In this document: positions 5,539-54,796 of the stretch, piece after piece
How positions within the stretch are numbered: the first letter of the stretch is position 1
Layout of the letters: each line of letters opens with the position of its first letter
Assembly: GCA_023954855.1 (NCBI GenBank)
Contig: JAGSGY010000027.1
Location: 1-60,919, forward strand
Length of the DNA: 60,919 nucleotides
Direction of reading: 5' to 3'
From: Pseudomonadota bacterium
GTDB taxonomy: Bacteria > Myxococcota_A > UBA796 > GCA-2862545
Translations under genes and position numbers: made by a program
The notes under the pieces: generated by a model
Told to the model about the DNA's origin: nothing
Database searches by the model: none
Seen by the model: the letters and a program-made list of their open reading frames with translations, nothing else

Positions 5539-6837
5539 TCACTCCCCGCGACGTCGCGAAGCGAGAAGGCCCACGAGCAGCGCCCAGCCCATGCCTCGCG
5601 CCGGCGACGACTGGCATCCGCAGCCCGATTCTTCGACTTCAGGCTCGGGTTCGACCGGAATGCCATCAATTCGCGCCACGGGAATCTCGCCGAGGTCGGG
5701 GCAGGCAGTGTCCTCGGCGTTGTCGCAGGCCACCTGGAAGCCCAGCTCGTAGATCTCGGTGGTCTCCTCGCCCCCCACGAGCTCAGCACCCGCCCGCATG
5801 CGCGCCGTGTACCAGCCGCCCGGGACCAGGTTCTGCTCGGGTTGCACACGGATCAGCCGCGTGTGGCCAGCACCCCACCGTGTGTTCGCCTGACGAAACG
5901 GCACGGAAGTGCCGTCGGAATCCACGAGCTCGACCAAGTCACCCTCGTAGCGAACCCCCTCTCCAAAGATCAGCGTCACCCAGCTGTCTGTGGTCGAAGC
6001 ATCACCAGAGCGCAGCCTGCGCGGGGTCTCGGGAAAGGCAAACACGGCCACGTCATCGGCCGAGAACTCGCCGTGAAGGCGTGACCAGAGCGCCTGCTGG
6101 TAGCGCATCGTCGGGTAGATCTCGGCGCGGAGGCTCCCGGGGACCGCGGGATCCATGTAGTGTTCGCGTCCCCACGGCATCTCAGTGGCGTAGCGCTCGC
6201 CGTAGTTCGCCGCGATGCCGAGACCGATCTCGTCATTGACGTAGGCCGCCACCGTCAGCCCAACCGAAGCGTCGATGACCTCTTCGGTCACGTCCTCGGA
6301 GAGGCCTTCGTAGAGTTCCAGCACCGTGGACATCGGGATGTCGCGCTCGGGGATGAAGCGAATGTGCTCGTCCAGCACCAGAAAACCGTCGGTCCCGGGG
6401 TCGGTCTCGCTCTGGCCAGCGCCATCGCGCTCTTCGACTTGGTGTAGGAATAGCGAGTCGAAGATCGAGTCCTGAAGTCCGTGCGAGGCACAGCCAAGCA
6501 GGAAGGCCACCCGCTTCTTCGACTCAATGGAGGTCCACGGAGGCGGGTCGTTCACGCGAATCCACTCGACGTAGTCCTCGATGAAGGGCTCCCAGTGGGT
6601 GTGCTCGGAGTAGGCCCTCGATGCCGGCTCGTCCCGGGCGTAGCCAGTGTCGGTAAACACCGCGCCGAAGAGCAGGGCGTTGAACACTTCGGGCTCGAGC
6701 AAGAACTGGCGAAGCTCGTCATCGGGCATGTTCTCGACGGCCCACCCCGTCACGTGCACATGACCCCAGATGCCGTGCGCATCCGCAGAGGTGGACCAAA
6801 GTGACGTGGCGAGGGCCACAGCAAAGGCGAAGCGCAT
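5539..6837 (-). CDS. Secreted zinc-dependent phospholipase C-like protein with MYXO-CTERM-like tail
   Basis: 432 residues. A Sec signal peptide ends near SADAHG, leaving HGIWGHVHVTGWAVE, the N-terminal zinc-binding Trp/His pattern of the zinc-dependent phospholipase C / S1-P1 nuclease fold. Further His ligands appear in EHTHWEPF and in GCASHGLQDSIFDSLFLHQVE (positions of the usual HxxxD and HxxxxD zinc motifs). It probably hydrolyses phospholipids outside the cell. The C-terminus has a Gly-Cys motif (SGCGCQ), a hydrophobic helix (WALLVGLLA) and SRRRGE, the tripartite MYXO-CTERM sorting signal. The start at 6837 has GGGAG 6 nt upstream. It is divergent from the ceramidase gene at 7003. Confidence 0.85.
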   Translation of the reverse strand: MRFAFAVALATSLWSTSADAHGIWGHVHVTGWAVENMPDDELRQFLLEPEVFNALLFGAVFTDTGYARDEPASRAYSEHTHWEPFIEDYVEWIRVNDPPPWTSIESKKRVAFLLGCASHGLQDSIFDSLFLHQVEERDGAGQSETDPGTDGFLVLDEHIRFIPERDIPMSTVLELYEGLSEDVTEEVIDASVGLTVAAYVNDEIGLGIAANYGERYATEMPWGREHYMDPAVPGSLRAEIYPTMRYQQALWSRLHGEFSADDVAVFAFPETPRRLRSGDASTTDSWVTLIFGEGVRYEGDLVELVDSDGTSVPFRQANTRWGAGHTRLIRVQPEQNLVPGGWYTARMRAGAELVGGEETTEIYELGFQVACDNAEDTACPDLGEIPVARIDGIPVEPEPEVEESGCGCQSSPARGMGWALLVGLLASRRRGE

Positions 6838-7002
6838 TCGTTCTCCCGAGCGCATCGTACCCAAGGATTGGCGGGTTGGTTGGGAGCGCTTGGAACGACG
6901 TCCACGGCAACAATTCGCCGAACTCAAGGTGGATTTGCCCAGAAGCGATGGCCATCGCCCCCGCGCGGCGGATAGGCACAAGGCCAGATCACGGGTGGAC
7001 AC

Positions 7003-8718
7003 ATGTGGCAGGTCGGAGCGGCGCGGCGCGAGCTCGAAATGGACTTCACCGGAATCGAATTGCTCGGCTGGGGTCAGCCCGAGGGGCGAATCGAGCGGGT
7101 GGAGTCCGCGCTCCAGGTACGCGCCGTCGCCCTCGAAGCCGATGGACAGCGGCTCGTCTATCTCTGCGCCGAGCTGTGCTTCATCACCCAGTCCTTGCGC
7201 GATGGGCTGTTCACCGTGCTGGCATCCCGTGGCATCGAGCTGGCCGAGCCCGAGCTCGTGGTGGCCGCCACCCACACCCACAGCGGCCCGGCAGGCTTCG
7301 CGCACGCCCTGTTCTACAACCTCTCGAACCCAGGCCACCATCCCGAGGTGTACGCGTGCATCGTGTCGACTTTCGCAGACGCCGTAGAGGCCGCCCTCAG
7401 CAGCATGGAGCCCGGCCAGGTCTGGCTCAATCGCGGTGAAATTCCGCTCGACGAGCCCGTCGCATTCAACCGGGCCATTCCCTCGTTCCTGCGAAACCCC
7501 GACGCCCCCACCATCGATGTGACGCGCCCCGAGACCGCCACCAACCGAGACCTCACCGTGCTCAGGGTGGATGGCGAGAGCGGTCCTCGGGCGGCCATCT
7601 GCTGGTTCGCCTGCCACAACACGAACGTGCACTTCGACAACCGCGCGCTGCACGGGGACAACAAGGGCGTGGCCGCTTCGCTGTTCGAAGACCACGCCGC
7701 GAGCCGCGGACACAGCGAGTTCGTCGGCATCTTCGCCCAGGGCGCCTCTGGGGATGTGACCCCAAACTACCGTCCGTCCAAGCGGGGCCTTGCGGTGGGC
7801 CATCACGACGACGACTTCGACAGCGCACGCTTTCACGGCGGCGTCCAGATGCGCCACGCCCTCGAGCTGTACGAGGCCCGCGGCGAAGCCCAGGACGGAC
7901 TCGACACGCACGCGACCTACCTCGACTTCGATGGCGCCACCGTCGACCCGCGCTTCGCGAACGGCCTCGAGAACCGCACCACCGGCCCCGCCCGCTACGG
8001 TCTCGGCCTCATCGAGGGCACCAGCGAGGGTCCTGGACCGCTGTTCAAAGCCCAGTTCGTGCGCCGCTCCCTCGTGGCCGCAGTGGGCTTTGCAAAGCGC
8101 ACCCGCAGCCGTCTTCCCGGCCTGCGCGACCGCTACCCCGATGGCGTCGACGACATCTATGGCCCGATGTTCCCGTTCATCGAAGCCGGCCTCGGTGTGA
8201 AGGGACGCGCCTTTGGCCTCGTGTCCATGCGGGCAAAGTACGTACCTGCGGCCATCGACCCCGTCGTCCACGAGATTCAGCGCCTGGCTGACACCGGTGC
8301 CGATCTCGACAGCCCCTGGACGCCGAGTGTCAAGCCGGTCCACGTGGCCCAGATTGGCAACTTTGCCCTGGTGTCCCTGCCCTGTGAGCCAACGACCACC
8401 GCCGGCCGTCGCATCGCGGCCACTGTTGCAGAGACCCTAGGTGTGCAGACCGTGCAGGTCGCCGGCTACTCGAACGCCTACCACGGCTACGTCACCACTC
8501 GAGAGGAGTACCAGGTCCAAGCGTACGAGGGGGCGCACACGATCTTCGGTCAGTTCACGCTCGCCGCCTACCTGACCAGCCTCGCGGAGCTGTGCGCGGA
8601 CATGGCGAAACACCACCACCATCGTGGCAGTTCGGCGGTCTCACCGACCCGGTTTACGGAGCAAGAGCTCGAGCGGCGCCGCTACCTGGGTCCACCGCCG
8701 AAGCGCAGCTGGGGCTAG
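7003..8718 (+). CDS. Neutral/alkaline (non-lysosomal) ceramidase family protein
   Basis: 571 residues covering the N-terminal catalytic domain of neutral ceramidases: AELCFI, the zinc-site segment ATHTHSGPAGF (about residues 88-98), CHNTNVHF, and QGASGDVTPN (about residues 247-256), which contains the conserved Ser-Gly-Asp stretch carrying the nucleophile in this family. It would cleave the N-acyl bond of ceramide to fatty acid and sphingosine. It is shorter than the roughly 650-700 residues of secreted ceramidases because the C-terminal immunoglobulin-like domain seems absent, and no signal peptide is visible, so it may act inside the cell or leave by another route. Divergent from the phospholipase C gene. 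Confidence 0.88.
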   Translation: MWQVGAARRELEMDFTGIELLGWGQPEGRIERVESALQVRAVALEADGQRLVYLCAELCFITQSLRDGLFTVLASRGIELAEPELVVAATHTHSGPAGFAHALFYNLSNPGHHPEVYACIVSTFADAVEAALSSMEPGQVWLNRGEIPLDEPVAFNRAIPSFLRNPDAPTIDVTRPETATNRDLTVLRVDGESGPRAAICWFACHNTNVHFDNRALHGDNKGVAASLFEDHAASRGHSEFVGIFAQGASGDVTPNYRPSKRGLAVGHHDDDFDSARFHGGVQMRHALELYEARGEAQDGLDTHATYLDFDGATVDPRFANGLENRTTGPARYGLGLIEGTSEGPGPLFKAQFVRRSLVAAVGFAKRTRSRLPGLRDRYPDGVDDIYGPMFPFIEAGLGVKGRAFGLVSMRAKYVPAAIDPVVHEIQRLADTGADLDSPWTPSVKPVHVAQIGNFALVSLPCEPTTTAGRRIAATVAETLGVQTVQVAGYSNAYHGYVTTREEYQVQAYEGAHTIFGQFTLAAYLTSLAELCADMAKHHHHRGSSAVSPTRFTEQELERRRYLGPPPKRSWG

Positions 8719-12534: not shown

Positions 12535-12687
12535 AGCCAGCGGAAAGGAGGGCGCAGGCCGAATAGGAAACGAGAACGAGGTCCTAGCTCGGCAGGCGGT
12601 CGACTCCCCCAGCCGGTCAGGGCACCGCCGCCTTTCCCCTCCCCCTTGTGCCAAGGAGACTTCCAACGAACCGCTACAGTCTTGCCG

Positions 12688-12703
12688 TGGTACTGTCGTT
12701 GCT
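12688..12703 (+). promoter_or_regulatory. Sigma-54 type (-24/-12) promoter
   Basis: TGGTACTGTCGTTGCT fits TGGCACG-N4-TTGCW with a perfect -12 element and 10 nt between GG (12689-12690) and GC (12701-12702). The GC is 29 nt upstream of the ATG at 12732, the same distance as at the gene starting at 1875. Confidence 0.6.
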
Positions 12704-12731
12704 CTTGAGTCTGAAAACCAGGATGTACCCC

Positions 12732-13673
<942 letters not shown>

Positions 13674-13863: not shown

Positions 13864-14325
13864 GTGGAGCCAATGAACGTGAGTACACCCCATCCAGAGA
13901 TCGTGGGCCGATGGCTCAGACTGAACGAAGACCTCGGCGACTTTTCCGTCATCTACGAGTTCCATCCCGACGGTGGATTCGTCGAACGAGGAGAGCGTCC
14001 CAGCCCCGCGGCGCTGTGGTCGATTGAGAGCGAGACGCTCCGCGTGGTGGATCCGCAGGGAGGGACTCTTGCATACCAGTTTGCCCTGAAAGGCGACTTG
14101 TTGACCCTGGATTCGGAGGATTGGGACGAGCCCCGGAGGGCACGCCGACTCCCACCGGAGGACTCCCCCCCCCTCTCGGACTGGGACATCAGCCTCCTCC
14201 GCCATGCGCTTCCCTCGATCTACAGGCCCTTCGGGCACACATCGAGGAGTTCAGCCTCGATCTACGCACGCAGCTGCTCGAAGACGATGCCTGGAGCCAG
14301 AAGGACCTCGCGACGTTCTCCGTGA
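13864..14325 (+). CDS. Lipocalin-like small protein, probably frameshifted at its C-terminus
   Basis: 153 residues from a GTG with GAGG 6 nt upstream. Residues 10-95 (EIVGRWLRLNEDLGDFSVIY, YEFHPDGGFVERGE, LWSIESETLRV, FALKGDLLTLDSED) have the pattern of small lipocalin-like beta barrels that start with a G-x-W strand. After residue 100 the frame crosses nine C residues (14165-14173); the last 30-40 residues turn Ser/Arg-rich and look out of frame, while frame +3 becomes strongly coding. The real protein may continue into the ORF ending at 14708. Confidence 0.6.
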   Translation: MEPMNVSTPHPEIVGRWLRLNEDLGDFSVIYEFHPDGGFVERGERPSPAALWSIESETLRVVDPQGGTLAYQFALKGDLLTLDSEDWDEPRRARRLPPEDSPPLSDWDISLLRHALPSIYRPFGHTSRSSASIYARSCSKTMPGARRTSRRSP

Positions 14326-14708
14326 GCCGGTACGAAGCCTCGACCGGCTTGCGCGCCAACGTCCTCTGGCGTGCCGGAGACGAGTTCAAGCGTGTGGCAC
14401 GCGAGGGCAACCCCACCAAGAGCCGAGACGCCGCTCACATCGTCCTGAGCGCCATCGCCAACGCACCACATCGCGAGCGCCTCGAGCTGCCGGGTGTGGG
14501 CTACTTCGAAGTCGTCGACAAGGCGGCACGGTTCGACTTCGACGAGAATGGCGTCCCCATCGACAAAAGCGCAGTAGGCGGCGTCAGGGTGTTCTTCTTC
14601 GTGTGTGACCCAGCGTTGAAGGCGAAGCTCGCCGCGAGCCCAGAGTATGAACGGCCCGCAGTCCGGCCCAGCTGGGAACGGGCAGCCTGCCCCTGGCGTC
14701 TCCCATGA
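14121..14708 (+). CDS. Downstream half of a split gene, or an overlapping gene, unknown function
   Basis: The ORF opens at ATG 14121, but coding character begins only near 14208 (LDLQALRAHIEEFSLDLRTQ). The following 150 residues look like a real domain: SVSRYEASTGLRANVLWRAG, ELPGVGYFEVVDKAARFDFD, GVRVFFFVCDPALKAKL. No start codon with a ribosome binding site exists near 14208, and the ORF overlaps the previous one by about 200 nt in another frame. One added base in the C9 tract would join the two into a protein of about 281 residues. No family is recognised. Confidence 0.55.
   Translation: MGRAPEGTPTPTGGLPPPLGLGHQPPPPCASLDLQALRAHIEEFSLDLRTQLLEDDAWSQKDLATFSVSRYEASTGLRANVLWRAGDEFKRVAREGNPTKSRDAAHIVLSAIANAPHRERLELPGVGYFEVVDKAARFDFDENGVPIDKSAVGGVRVFFFVCDPALKAKLAASPEYERPAVRPSWERAACPWRLP
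14165..14173 (+). repeat. C9 homopolymer
   Basis: Nine consecutive C residues inside the region where two ORFs in different frames overlap. Such tracts slip during replication and are also a common source of sequencing error. Confidence 0.85.
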
Positions 14709-49614: not shown

Positions 49615-50481
49615 ATGCCGAACACAGAGCTGACTCTCAAGCGCGATTTGTCCTCTTTCCGACAGATCGCCCTAGGTACCTGGAAGACCACCAAGGACCC
49701 CAGCGTCTACGGGTCGCTCTCCCTCGAGGTGGACGACGCACTGGCCTACATTCAGGCGTTCCGGGACAAGACTGGCGTACCGCTCACGCTCACCCATCTC
49801 ATGGCCAAGGCCGTGGGCGTAGTGCTTGCGGAGATGCCGGATGCAAACGCGATTCTACGCTTCCACCGTGTCTACCTGCGCAAGGACGTCGATGTCTTCT
49901 TTCAGGTGATGATGACGGACCCCGAGACCGGCCAAATCGACCTGTCTGGCCTGACCATCCGCAAGGCGGACACCAAGTCGCTGGTCGACATCGCCACCGA
50001 GTTTCGCCGGGTGGCCGAGAAGGTCAGGGCCGGAAAGGACGAAGAGAAGGAACAGACCCGCAAGACCTTCAAGCTGATGCCTGGATGGCTGGTGGGCTGG
50101 GTGCTCGACACCATCGGCTTGCTGCTGTACACCTTCAACCTGGACCTACGGAAGCTCGGTCTTCCTCGCGACCCATTCGGCTCGGTGATGGTGACGAACA
50201 TCGGGTCCTTGGGACTCGAGGAAGCCTACGTGCCGCTCGTTCCCTACAGCCGGGTGCCACTGCTCATCGCGATGGGGGCGGTGAAGAAGGTCCCTCTAGT
50301 CGACGAAGAGACCGATGCCATTCGCATCGGCAAGGTGATGCGCGTCTTCGCGACCTTCGACCACCGCCTGCTGGATGGAGCGCACGCCGCGAAGATGTCG
50401 AAGACACTCAAGCGCATGTTTGCGGACCCCGAGACCCACTTCGGCCCCATTCCCGACGCCGTCGAGACGAGCGAGGCGTAG
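49615..50481 (+). CDS. 2-oxoacid dehydrogenase E2-type acyltransferase, catalytic domain only
   Basis: 288 residues that match only the trimeric acyltransferase core of E2 proteins: PLTLTHLMAKAVGVVLAEMP near residue 62, GSVMVTNIGSLGLEEAYVPL, and the active site FDHRLLDG with H250 and D254. Lipoyl and subunit-binding domains are missing, and a hydrophobic insert (GWLVGWVLDTIGLLLYTFNL) sits in the middle. It is thus unlikely to be the normal partner of an E1 and may be an acyltransferase of separate function. A TATACT hexamer lies 8 nt before the start codon; no ribosome binding site is obvious. Confidence 0.85.
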   Translation: MPNTELTLKRDLSSFRQIALGTWKTTKDPSVYGSLSLEVDDALAYIQAFRDKTGVPLTLTHLMAKAVGVVLAEMPDANAILRFHRVYLRKDVDVFFQVMMTDPETGQIDLSGLTIRKADTKSLVDIATEFRRVAEKVRAGKDEEKEQTRKTFKLMPGWLVGWVLDTIGLLLYTFNLDLRKLGLPRDPFGSVMVTNIGSLGLEEAYVPLVPYSRVPLLIAMGAVKKVPLVDEETDAIRIGKVMRVFATFDHRLLDGAHAAKMSKTLKRMFADPETHFGPIPDAVETSEA

Positions 50482-50525
50482 CGCCGCCACGGCCGGGCTG
50501 GGTTAGCCTTGCCGACGAGGAACTC

Positions 50526-51380
50526 ATGGCCGCGCCCAATCCACGCTCACGTCCCAAAGGCCCCCCACCGTCATCTGATCCGGACCGCGGAGACGAGCAC
50601 ATCCGGGAGGCTGGCTACTCCTACCTGCCGAAGTTCATCACCGCCGCCGAGGGGGCCGCTCTTGTGAGCTACTTCGCGAGCCTGCATCCCATCTGGGAGA
50701 ACCGCTACGCGGACAAACGACGTCGCGGCGGCTCCGGCAGACTCACACGACCGGTGTACTGGCTCGGCGCCTGGCAGTTTGCCGCCCTGGGCTACTACGC
50801 TGAACCCAACCACCTTGAGAACCGCTGCGTGCGCGCAGAACCCCTGCCCACCGTCATGACGGACATTCTCGAGCGTCTGCGACCCGAGCTCGGCCTGCAC
50901 GGCGAGGACGCGCTCCCCAACACCTGCCTGATCAACTACTACGGCCGGGTCGGAAAGAGCGAGGGCAAGCCGCCGGTCGACTACGCCCGACTCCGAATGC
51001 ACCGCGACGCCGAGCCAGGGGCGGTCGTGATGTTCTCTGTGGGTCAGCCCGCGCAGTTCGAGTTCGTCCTGCCCGATGCCACCGAGCCGAAGCACTCCCA
51101 GTGGGTCCGCAACCGCTCCGTCGTCATCTTGAGTGGGCCCGAGTACAAAGACACGCTCTACCACCGGGTCACGCGCGTGCGATACGGCCAGGACCCCGTC
51201 CTTACCAGCAAGCTCGAGGCATTCGAAGTCAGGCGCATCAGCGTGTCCTTTCGACACGTGCCAGATGCCTACATCCACGACCTGGCCGACCTGAGCGAGG
51301 ATGCCCGCGCCATCGCCACCCCCTATGTCGAGCAGCTCGCCGCCCACTCGGCGCACTTTCAGCGTCAGCTCGAAGGCTGA
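50526..51380 (+). CDS. AlkB-like 2-oxoglutarate/Fe(II) dioxygenase
   Basis: 284 residues; GAGGA 5 nt before ATG 50526. The double-stranded beta-helix core shows MHRDAEPGAVVMFSVGQPAQ (iron ligands His and Asp), a distal His in KDTLYHRVTRV and the 2-oxoglutarate Arg in RRISVSFRHV. Upstream, INYYGRVGKSEG matches the NxYxxG loop that precedes the iron site in AlkB relatives. It likely oxidises alkylated nucleic acids or proteins. The C-terminal extension is helical. It ends convergent with the hydrolase gene, overlapping by 16 nt. Confidence 0.88.
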   Translation: MAAPNPRSRPKGPPPSSDPDRGDEHIREAGYSYLPKFITAAEGAALVSYFASLHPIWENRYADKRRRGGSGRLTRPVYWLGAWQFAALGYYAEPNHLENRCVRAEPLPTVMTDILERLRPELGLHGEDALPNTCLINYYGRVGKSEGKPPVDYARLRMHRDAEPGAVVMFSVGQPAQFEFVLPDATEPKHSQWVRNRSVVILSGPEYKDTLYHRVTRVRYGQDPVLTSKLEAFEVRRISVSFRHVPDAYIHDLADLSEDARAIATPYVEQLAAHSAHFQRQLEG

Positions 51381-52573: not shown

Positions 52574-53929
52574 CTAGAGCAGGTATTTCACGTCATTGGT
52601 GAACGTCGGGTAGGCGAAGAGTCCGGTGGCGAGCTCGGAGGCGGGAATGCCATAGCGAATGGCCAAGGCAAAGACCTCGATTACCTCACCCGCGCCATGC
52701 CCGATGAGGTGTGCACCGACGATGCGGTCGGCCTTGCGGTCAAGCAACACCTTCGCCCAGGCCACCGGCTCGTCGTAGGTACGCGCAGAGAGCCAGCCCT
52801 TCATCTGGGTCACCTTTGTCTCGACCTCCAACCCCTGAGCCTCGGCCTGCGCTTCGGTCAACCCCACCTGCGCGAGCGCGGGGATGGTGAAGACGGCGCT
52901 CGGGAGCGTGCTGTAGTCGGGCGCCTGAAGGTCGTCGGGGTGGAGCAGGTTGTGCCCGACGATACGGCCCTCATAGGTGGCGACCGGCGACAGCTGAGGC
53001 GTCGCAGGAAGCGCGTCCCCGGCAAACCAAACGGCCTTGTTATCGATGGACTGAAGGTGGAGCGAGACCTGAGGTCTCCCGCGCTCGAGCGAAACCCCGG
53101 CCTTGTCGATGTCGATGTTGTCCACATTCGCCACCCGACCGGCGCCATTGAACGCGTATTCCGCAGTCCGCGTCTCGATCTCACCCTCATGAAGGAACTG
53201 CACGACCAACCCACTCGGCCCGCTGACCACCGCCTGAATCTGTACCCCGGTGAGCACCTCGATCCCCAATTTGCGGGTGTGAGCGACCTGCTCGGCGACG
53301 AGGTCCGCATCCATCTGGCCGAGAGGCTGCGGCATGACCTCGAGAATCGTGACGCGAGTGCCCACCCGAGCCAACACGTGGGCGAACTCGAACGCGACGA
53401 CCCCTCCGCCCACAAACACCGCCGACTCGGGTCGGGTCTCGAGGCTAAGGAACTGCTCGCTCGTCGATAGGAGGTCGGCTCCCGCGAAACTCAGCGGCCG
53501 TGGACGGGAGCCGGTCGCCACGACGATGTTGGGTGCCGTGAGCTCGAGCTCTCCGATGCGCACGCTGTTCGGGCCCGAGAACCGTGCCTCACCACGAAAC
53601 AGTTCGATGCCTCGAGCCTCGAGGCTGGCGGACATCGCACCGGCCAGTGGATCGACGAAGGCGTTCTTACGGGCAACGAGCGCCTGCCAGTCCAGCTTCG
53701 CCGGCCCTACGGAGATGGCGTGGGCTCCCGCACGCTCAACCGCATCCAGTGCCGTCGCCGCAGCCACGAATACCTTCTTGGGAACACAGCCCCGATTCGG
53801 GCACACACCGCCGACGTCCCGCGACTCGACAATGGCCACGCTCCATCCGGCCTTGCGCACAGCTCCAGCTACGGCCTGCCCGGCATTCCCAGCTCCCAAG
53901 ACGACGAGATCATGTGTGCCCACGCGCAC
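52574..53929 (-). CDS. NAD(P)/FAD-dependent oxidoreductase, glutathione reductase-like family
   Basis: 451 residues. FAD-binding VVLGAGNAGQAVAG, redox-active disulfide C43-PNRG-C48, NAD-binding VFVGGGVVAFEFAHV, and the second FAD motif WFAGDALPATP are intact, so it can pass electrons from NAD(P)H through FAD to the disulfide. The C-terminal HPTxxE motif, whose His activates the thiolate in glutathione reductase and lipoamide dehydrogenase, reads YPTFTND here. It is thus likely to reduce something other than glutathione or lipoamide. The GTG start at 53929 follows a G-rich stretch; GTG 53923 is an alternative. Confidence 0.9.
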   Translation of the reverse strand: MRVGTHDLVVLGAGNAGQAVAGAVRKAGWSVAIVESRDVGGVCPNRGCVPKKVFVAAATALDAVERAGAHAISVGPAKLDWQALVARKNAFVDPLAGAMSASLEARGIELFRGEARFSGPNSVRIGELELTAPNIVVATGSRPRPLSFAGADLLSTSEQFLSLETRPESAVFVGGGVVAFEFAHVLARVGTRVTILEVMPQPLGQMDADLVAEQVAHTRKLGIEVLTGVQIQAVVSGPSGLVVQFLHEGEIETRTAEYAFNGAGRVANVDNIDIDKAGVSLERGRPQVSLHLQSIDNKAVWFAGDALPATPQLSPVATYEGRIVGHNLLHPDDLQAPDYSTLPSAVFTIPALAQVGLTEAQAEAQGLEVETKVTQMKGWLSARTYDEPVAWAKVLLDRKADRIVGAHLIGHGAGEVIEVFALAIRYGIPASELATGLFAYPTFTNDVKYLL

Positions 53930-54014
53930 CCCCCTGCAGAGCGCCCGCAGTTCAGGTCACTCGCAGGGGGTAGAGCGGCGCGGTGCCGAGACGTTACGCG
54001 GGTCGCGCGACGGA

Positions 54015-54653
54015 CTACTCGAGCTCGATGCGGTGGGTGCGCACCTCGTCGCGCGTCATCCAGTGAATGTCGTCACTCGGCGCCGCCTGCAGCGTGAACC
54101 AATAGAAGGACGCATCGACACCGATCGCCTCGTAGTAGTCGAGAAACAGGTCATGGTCCGGGTGGTCCTTCGCAAGGTCGCCCCCTTCGACACCGCCCCC
54201 CGTCGCCCAGCTGTGAACGCCCACGCGGGCGCCCTCCGGTGCCGTTCTCTGGTTGCCCGCCAAGAACAAGTCTACGCCGCCAGAGGCGATCAGGCCGGTG
54301 CTGGGCACGCAGGTATCGAGTCCCAGGTTGTGGACGCTCAGCGCGAGCGGAATGTTCGCTTCGTCGTTCGCGGAGCCCGGCACGAAAGGCATCACGAGCG
54401 TTCGGAGCTGTGGGTTGTCGTCCACGAGTCGAGCAAAGCGACCCGGCGACTTCGCCGTGATGTAGCCAGACACAATGGCCCGACTTCGGTCGGCGGTGTC
54501 GATGGAGAACGTGGCCGGCTCGTCGGCGTAGTCAGCCTCGAAGAAGCCCTCACAGGACGGTGGGGGCCCCGCGGCCTCGGCGCTGTCCACAAGTGGGGTG
54601 GTGGGAAGGCTACGGGCGCAGCCGACCAAGACGGTCAGGACAATGAATCGCAT
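54015..54653 (-). CDS. ClpP-fold-like lipoprotein (COG3904-like)
   Basis: 212 residues from ATG 54653, giving MRFIVLTVLVGC, a lipobox with Cys12. The mature domain resembles the periplasmic ClpP/crotonase-fold proteins of COG3904: AIVSGYITAKSPGRFARLV, LDTCVPSTGLIASGGVDLF and a following loop with GNQRTAPEGARVGVHSW. In that group a CxSAC element precedes the nucleophile region; here ASGG offers a possible Ser. A serine protease or lipid-binding role is only inferred. It is followed after a short gap by the flavoprotein gene on the same strand. Confidence 0.65.
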   Translation of the reverse strand: MRFIVLTVLVGCARSLPTTPLVDSAEAAGPPPSCEGFFEADYADEPATFSIDTADRSRAIVSGYITAKSPGRFARLVDDNPQLRTLVMPFVPGSANDEANIPLALSVHNLGLDTCVPSTGLIASGGVDLFLAGNQRTAPEGARVGVHSWATGGGVEGGDLAKDHPDHDLFLDYYEAIGVDASFYWFTLQAAPSDDIHWMTRDEVRTHRIELE

Positions 54654-54796
54654 GGCACGCTCGGGCCCCTGACCGAAGCCACGGGGCGTTGTCGTGAAGC
54701 CGGCGCTTGTGCCGGCGGCGTCGGGCGGTGACATCGCGCGGTCCCGCGGCTCCGACCCAAGCCCCATAACGCGGTCCACCCGGGACATCCGACCGT

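Follow-up and report, generated by a model that had tools for sequence, protein, structure and literature searches.

The two overlapping open reading frames (ORFs) that lie in different frames around a run of nine C at 14165-14173 probably represent a single orphan gene of about 280 codons, which would have been broken by one small indel at 14205-14241 without any involvement of the run. The window, that is, the whole stretch of DNA analysed (60,919 bases), is one contig (C24) of a 6.1-Mb genome in 178 contigs (97.06% complete, 1.38% contaminated). A preliminary description had proposed that the length of the C run decides whether the two ORFs form one protein. Our analysis supported the view that the ORFs are pieces of one coding sequence, whereas it did not support the role assigned to the run. 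The features referred to below are as follows.

13873 to 14223, plus strand: N-terminal part of the putative single gene, in the upstream frame through the nine C (117 codons), with a positive score to about 14223.
14165 to 14173, plus strand: run of nine C, in frame within TCC CCC CCC CTC and probably a bystander.
14205 to 14241, plus strand: putative frame break (one base lost or two gained), best placed at 14223/14224, from the posterior, the gene model and the calibration.
14224 to 14325, plus strand: out-of-frame tail of the upstream ORF to its TGA, with -14.6 nats in this frame and +10.6 nats in the other.
14226 to 14705, plus strand: C-terminal part of the putative gene, in the downstream frame (160 codons, stop at 14706-14708), from the coding score.
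14322 to 14325, plus strand: GTGA, an apparent 4-base start/stop overlap that was judged accidental.

Both ORFs are real and overlap as had been described. The upstream ORF extends from GTG at 13864 (or ATG at 13873) to TGA at 14323-14325, the GTG being the alternative start for the N-terminal part. Stops at 14025 and 14706 bound the downstream frame, which is open from 14028 on. The absence of a convincing start for the downstream ORF was borne out, as the only ATG, GTG or TTG codons in its frame before 14349 are TTG at 14121 and GTG at 14322, and none of the three was found at 14124-14321. The addition of one base at the run indeed fuses the two ORFs, giving 278 codons from ATG 13873 and 281 from GTG 13864. 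The GC contents of the three codon positions (0.70/0.45/0.71 and 0.71/0.49/0.76 for the upstream and downstream halves, respectively) correspond to the coding composition of the genome. The coding character of the upstream ORF fades about 100 bases before its stop, and that of the downstream piece starts at about 14223.

The position of the frame switch was established statistically, with a codon model trained on the large ORFs of the window, to which a single switch from the upstream to the downstream frame was fitted. The change-point likelihood was highest for a switch at 14223, and 99% of the posterior fell within about 14205-14241. With the first training set, a switch at the nine C was 13.8 nats worse than that at 14223, and with the second training set the switch at 14223 gave 51.2 nats and a switch within the run 38.7 nats, i.e., 12.5 lower. 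The 16 codons after the run (14176-14223) scored +5.8 nats in the upstream frame and -6.2 nats in the downstream frame, and the signs were reversed over 14224-14322, where the upstream frame scored -14.6 nats and the downstream frame +10.6 nats. Because the codons after the run score in favor of the upstream frame, this frame appears to read through the nine C, with the break lying beyond them. By these scores, the coding frame changes about 35-70 bases downstream of the run and not at the run itself, which does not support the proposed hinge.

The gene-segmentation model, in which 4-base overlaps were permitted, placed one frameshift here, at 14224. Seven shifts were placed in total, and the other six are no more than about 20 bases away from a gene end, a start or an overlap, according to the coordinates of the model's own path, with the sequence inspected around two of the six. 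No homopolymer longer than three bases was found at the inferred break (14205-14241). The codon model takes codons as independent, and linkers may have an odd composition; an atypical Pro-rich linker at 14174-14223 would leave a break at the C run possible.

For the calibration, one base was deleted in silico from fragments of 17 ORFs of the window, in 2217 trials. The true site was penalised by at least 13.79 nats, as the nine C are here, in 58 of the 2217 trials; an earlier random run of the same deletion trial had given 215 and 197 of 5000. The switch was set at least 35 bases too far downstream in 110 of the 2217 trials. The 17 ORFs used for training had been chosen for their size, and the gene model does not read all of them as coding throughout, the exceptions being 53334-54731, the far part of 5539-8343 and the first part of 50085-51380. 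The ranges of the failing sites lay within or beside ORF stretches to which the gene model assigns no coding in that frame, suggesting that errors are probably less frequent within real coding sequence. When 53334-54731 alone was left out, the penalty reached at least 13.79 nats in 14 of 2150 trials. Both 53334-54731 and 50085-51380 were dropped from training from the gene-segmentation model onward. On the plus strand, 53334-54731 is an open frame of 465 residues at a place where the gene model reads minus-strand genes (52574-53860 and 54015-54788), and it is probably a long spurious antisense ORF.

An unlikely alternative is that the nine C are the hinge after all, through phase variation by slipped-strand mispairing, through slippage of the polymerase or the ribosome, or through an assembly error hiding a tenth C, so that the C10 form would make the full protein. 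The run is present as described and is the sole homopolymer of at least seven bases in the window. It also holds the sole X_XXY_YYZ heptamer in the upstream frame over 14122-14325 (C CCC CCC at 14166, and not at the inferred break), and a tenth C leaves the frame open to 14706. However, the length of the run is within chance expectation, as dinucleotide-preserving shuffles of the window contained a mean of 0.99 such runs, with at least one run of nine in 53 of 100. The genome as a whole has seven runs of at least nine (nine places are listed, with two runs of ten entered twice) and 37 runs of exactly eight. The RNA after the run was not unusually stable either (z -0.09; 89 of 200 shuffles at least as stable). 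The hexamer GGAGGA occurs at 14115-14120, directly before TTG 14121, and at 14157-14162, two bases before the run. The second copy could serve as a Shine-Dalgarno-like stimulator of slippage at the run, but the two strands of the window together have 20 copies of GGAGGA, and the pair near the run is probably due to chance. Phase variation, -1 slippage and a missing tenth C would all predict coding in the downstream frame after the run, and the opposite was seen for the 16 codons there. Phase variation at the run is disfavoured.

The other long runs of the assembly bear on the same alternative. We examined 36 C/G runs of at least eight bases, comprising 30 of the 37 runs of eight and 6 of the 7 of nine or longer; the eight runs without a locus, seven of C8 and one of at least nine (C123), were left out. 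Clear coding on both sides was seen for 7 of the 36 runs, with the same frame on the two sides in six and opposite strands in one, and 28 of the remaining 29 lacked clear coding on both sides, one being unscorable. The run at 14165 is among these 28 and outside the seven, since its right side scored 0.10 with a cut-off of above 0.1. No frame switch on the same strand was found at any of the seven runs with clear coding on both sides, suggesting that genes in this assembly are not as a rule disrupted by long runs of C. At another locus (L008, 1501-1509, G000:C102), a run of nine G is accompanied by long open frames with coding-like scores on both strands, and the best frame changes strand at the run. 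Within the window, a tandem array of a 6-base unit, GACGCC, extends over 12921-13002 (13.7 copies); it is a repeat of whole codons and specifies an Asp-Ala repeat in the ORF 12648-13673, for which a Pfam search returned nothing better than E 2.9.

It is distinctly unlikely that the two ORFs are two translationally coupled genes, the first ending with TGA at 14325 and the second starting from GTG 14322 with a 4-base overlap and possibly encoding an HU-like domain. The GTGA overlap does exist, 4-base overlaps are common in the window, and the weak HU match (14436-14534) lies wholly after the overlap. However, with the second training set, two genes overlapping at 14322 gave 25.2 nats as compared to 51.2 nats for one gene. 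As a control, six 4-base overlaps that appear genuine and share this frame relation were examined; for these the switch was placed 3-24 bases upstream with penalties of 1.2-4.3, whereas for the candidate overlap at 14322 it was placed 99 bases upstream with a penalty of 25.6. In addition, no Shine-Dalgarno-like sequence was seen at the usual spacing before GTG 14322.

Slippage at the nine C might also act on top of the break, as a reversible second-site suppressor of the frame loss near 14223 that would create an accidental two-state switch, a reading that we consider highly improbable. Since the downstream frame is already open at the run (from 14028 on), such slippage could bring translation back into it. 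A dual-coded stretch or programmed -1 frameshifting at about 14205-14241 is barely credible: the net -1 direction would fit and coding character is retained in both parts, but this segment contains neither an X_XXY_YYZ heptamer in the upstream frame nor a run above three bases.

For the downstream part, no credible homologue was found in 58 relatives, 71 genomes of the class, 377 genomes of the phylum, phages, plasmids, viral contigs or the genome contig collection. Besides its own match, the 377 phylum genomes gave five weak ones. One of these (L018, E 0.009), whose alignment lies around an HU-like motif within a 98-residue open frame, is by our reading a likely HU gene, and the other four were read as chance. 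For the upstream part, no credible homologue was found in the 58 relatives, the 377 phylum genomes or the genome contig collection. Three candidate matches of this part were rejected on inspection, namely that of L011/L067, probably a WD40-like repeat protein, that of L012/L069, and that of L068, which is out of frame of another gene. The PDB matches of the upstream part, the best of which was to the PkwA kinase (E 3e-07 over 32 residues), were regarded as biased short matches; no stretch among them passed on its own, and the WD40 Pfam model reached only E 0.32-0.43.

The upstream ORF had been called lipocalin-like, a label that received no support from the profile searches, in which no lipocalin match was obtained in Pfam, NCBIfam or PHROGs. 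The structure models of the two parts have low pLDDT values (44 and 46). The low-confidence model of the upstream part (pLDDT 46) has eight strands and then, at residues 103-111, a helix, which is encoded after the C run. For the downstream half, sub-threshold matches to two HU-type Pfam models were obtained (E 0.035-0.068; 14.6 and 13.9 bits), of which PF00216, with 13.9 bits, is below its gathering score of 22.4. The scan of the genome itself with PF00216 gave 11.7 bits (E 1.44) at 14436-14534, and three HU chains were among the PDB matches of the downstream part (E 0.72-0.99). A stretch of the downstream half resembles the region around the 'GFGTF' motif of HU. Relative to the HU/IHF DNA-binding domain (PF00216), to which it is linked here by a sub-threshold match, the downstream half has a longer N-terminal extension. 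The putative gene may encode a small beta-rich N-terminal part and an HU-like C-terminal part. In the same genome, a 354-residue ORF on the minus strand (L062, 1177-2241, G000:C33) combines DUF4240 (E 4.7e-10) with an HU domain that is divergent but scores above the cut-off (E 4.1e-05; 24.2 bits, cut-off 22.4), indicating that HU-like modules in larger proteins exist in this genome.

These observations can be set beside known systems. For orphan singletons, the GeneTack survey (PMC3711429) expects 33% to be overlapping genes and 67% to result from sequencing errors or indel mutations. The present case is like the singleton or orphan 'fs-genes' described there, in that codon statistics reveal an abrupt frame transition in an orphan gene, and unlike them in that the overlap reading was tested here against genuine overlaps and disfavoured. 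In the phase-variable tracts of Bordetella (PMC1891110) and Neisseria (PMC5084427), a G/C run of similar length likewise lies in a coding region, and a difference of one base alters the frame. The Bordetella tracts were selected for exceeding the length expected by chance, and variation was demonstrated in several of them; the nine C here, in contrast, are of chance length, and the coding frame is not switched at the run.

If the two parts are one gene broken by a plain indel, as we favor, the gene would extend from ATG 13873 or GTG 13864 to the TGA ending at 14708 and would be found in this genome only, among those searched. The indel would, on balance, have removed one base or added two, and it would stem from a true mutation or from an error in the assembly. 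As the sequence is written, translation would cross the nine C in frame, leave the coding frame near 14223 and, some 33 meaningless codons later, stop at 14325; the C-terminal part would therefore not be made. A mutation, if this is the source, would be recent, as neither half has yet lost its normal coding composition.

Overall, the result is mainly corrective: a conspicuous homopolymer drew attention, and the coding statistics shift the break elsewhere. If the indel is an assembly error, the consequence would be a small annotation fix, and if it is a mutation, the locus would be one decaying orphan gene. Wider interest is confined to suppressor slippage at the run; if that reading were true, cells with ten C would make the full-length protein with a different Pro-rich linker, and cells with nine C would make the N-terminal part only.
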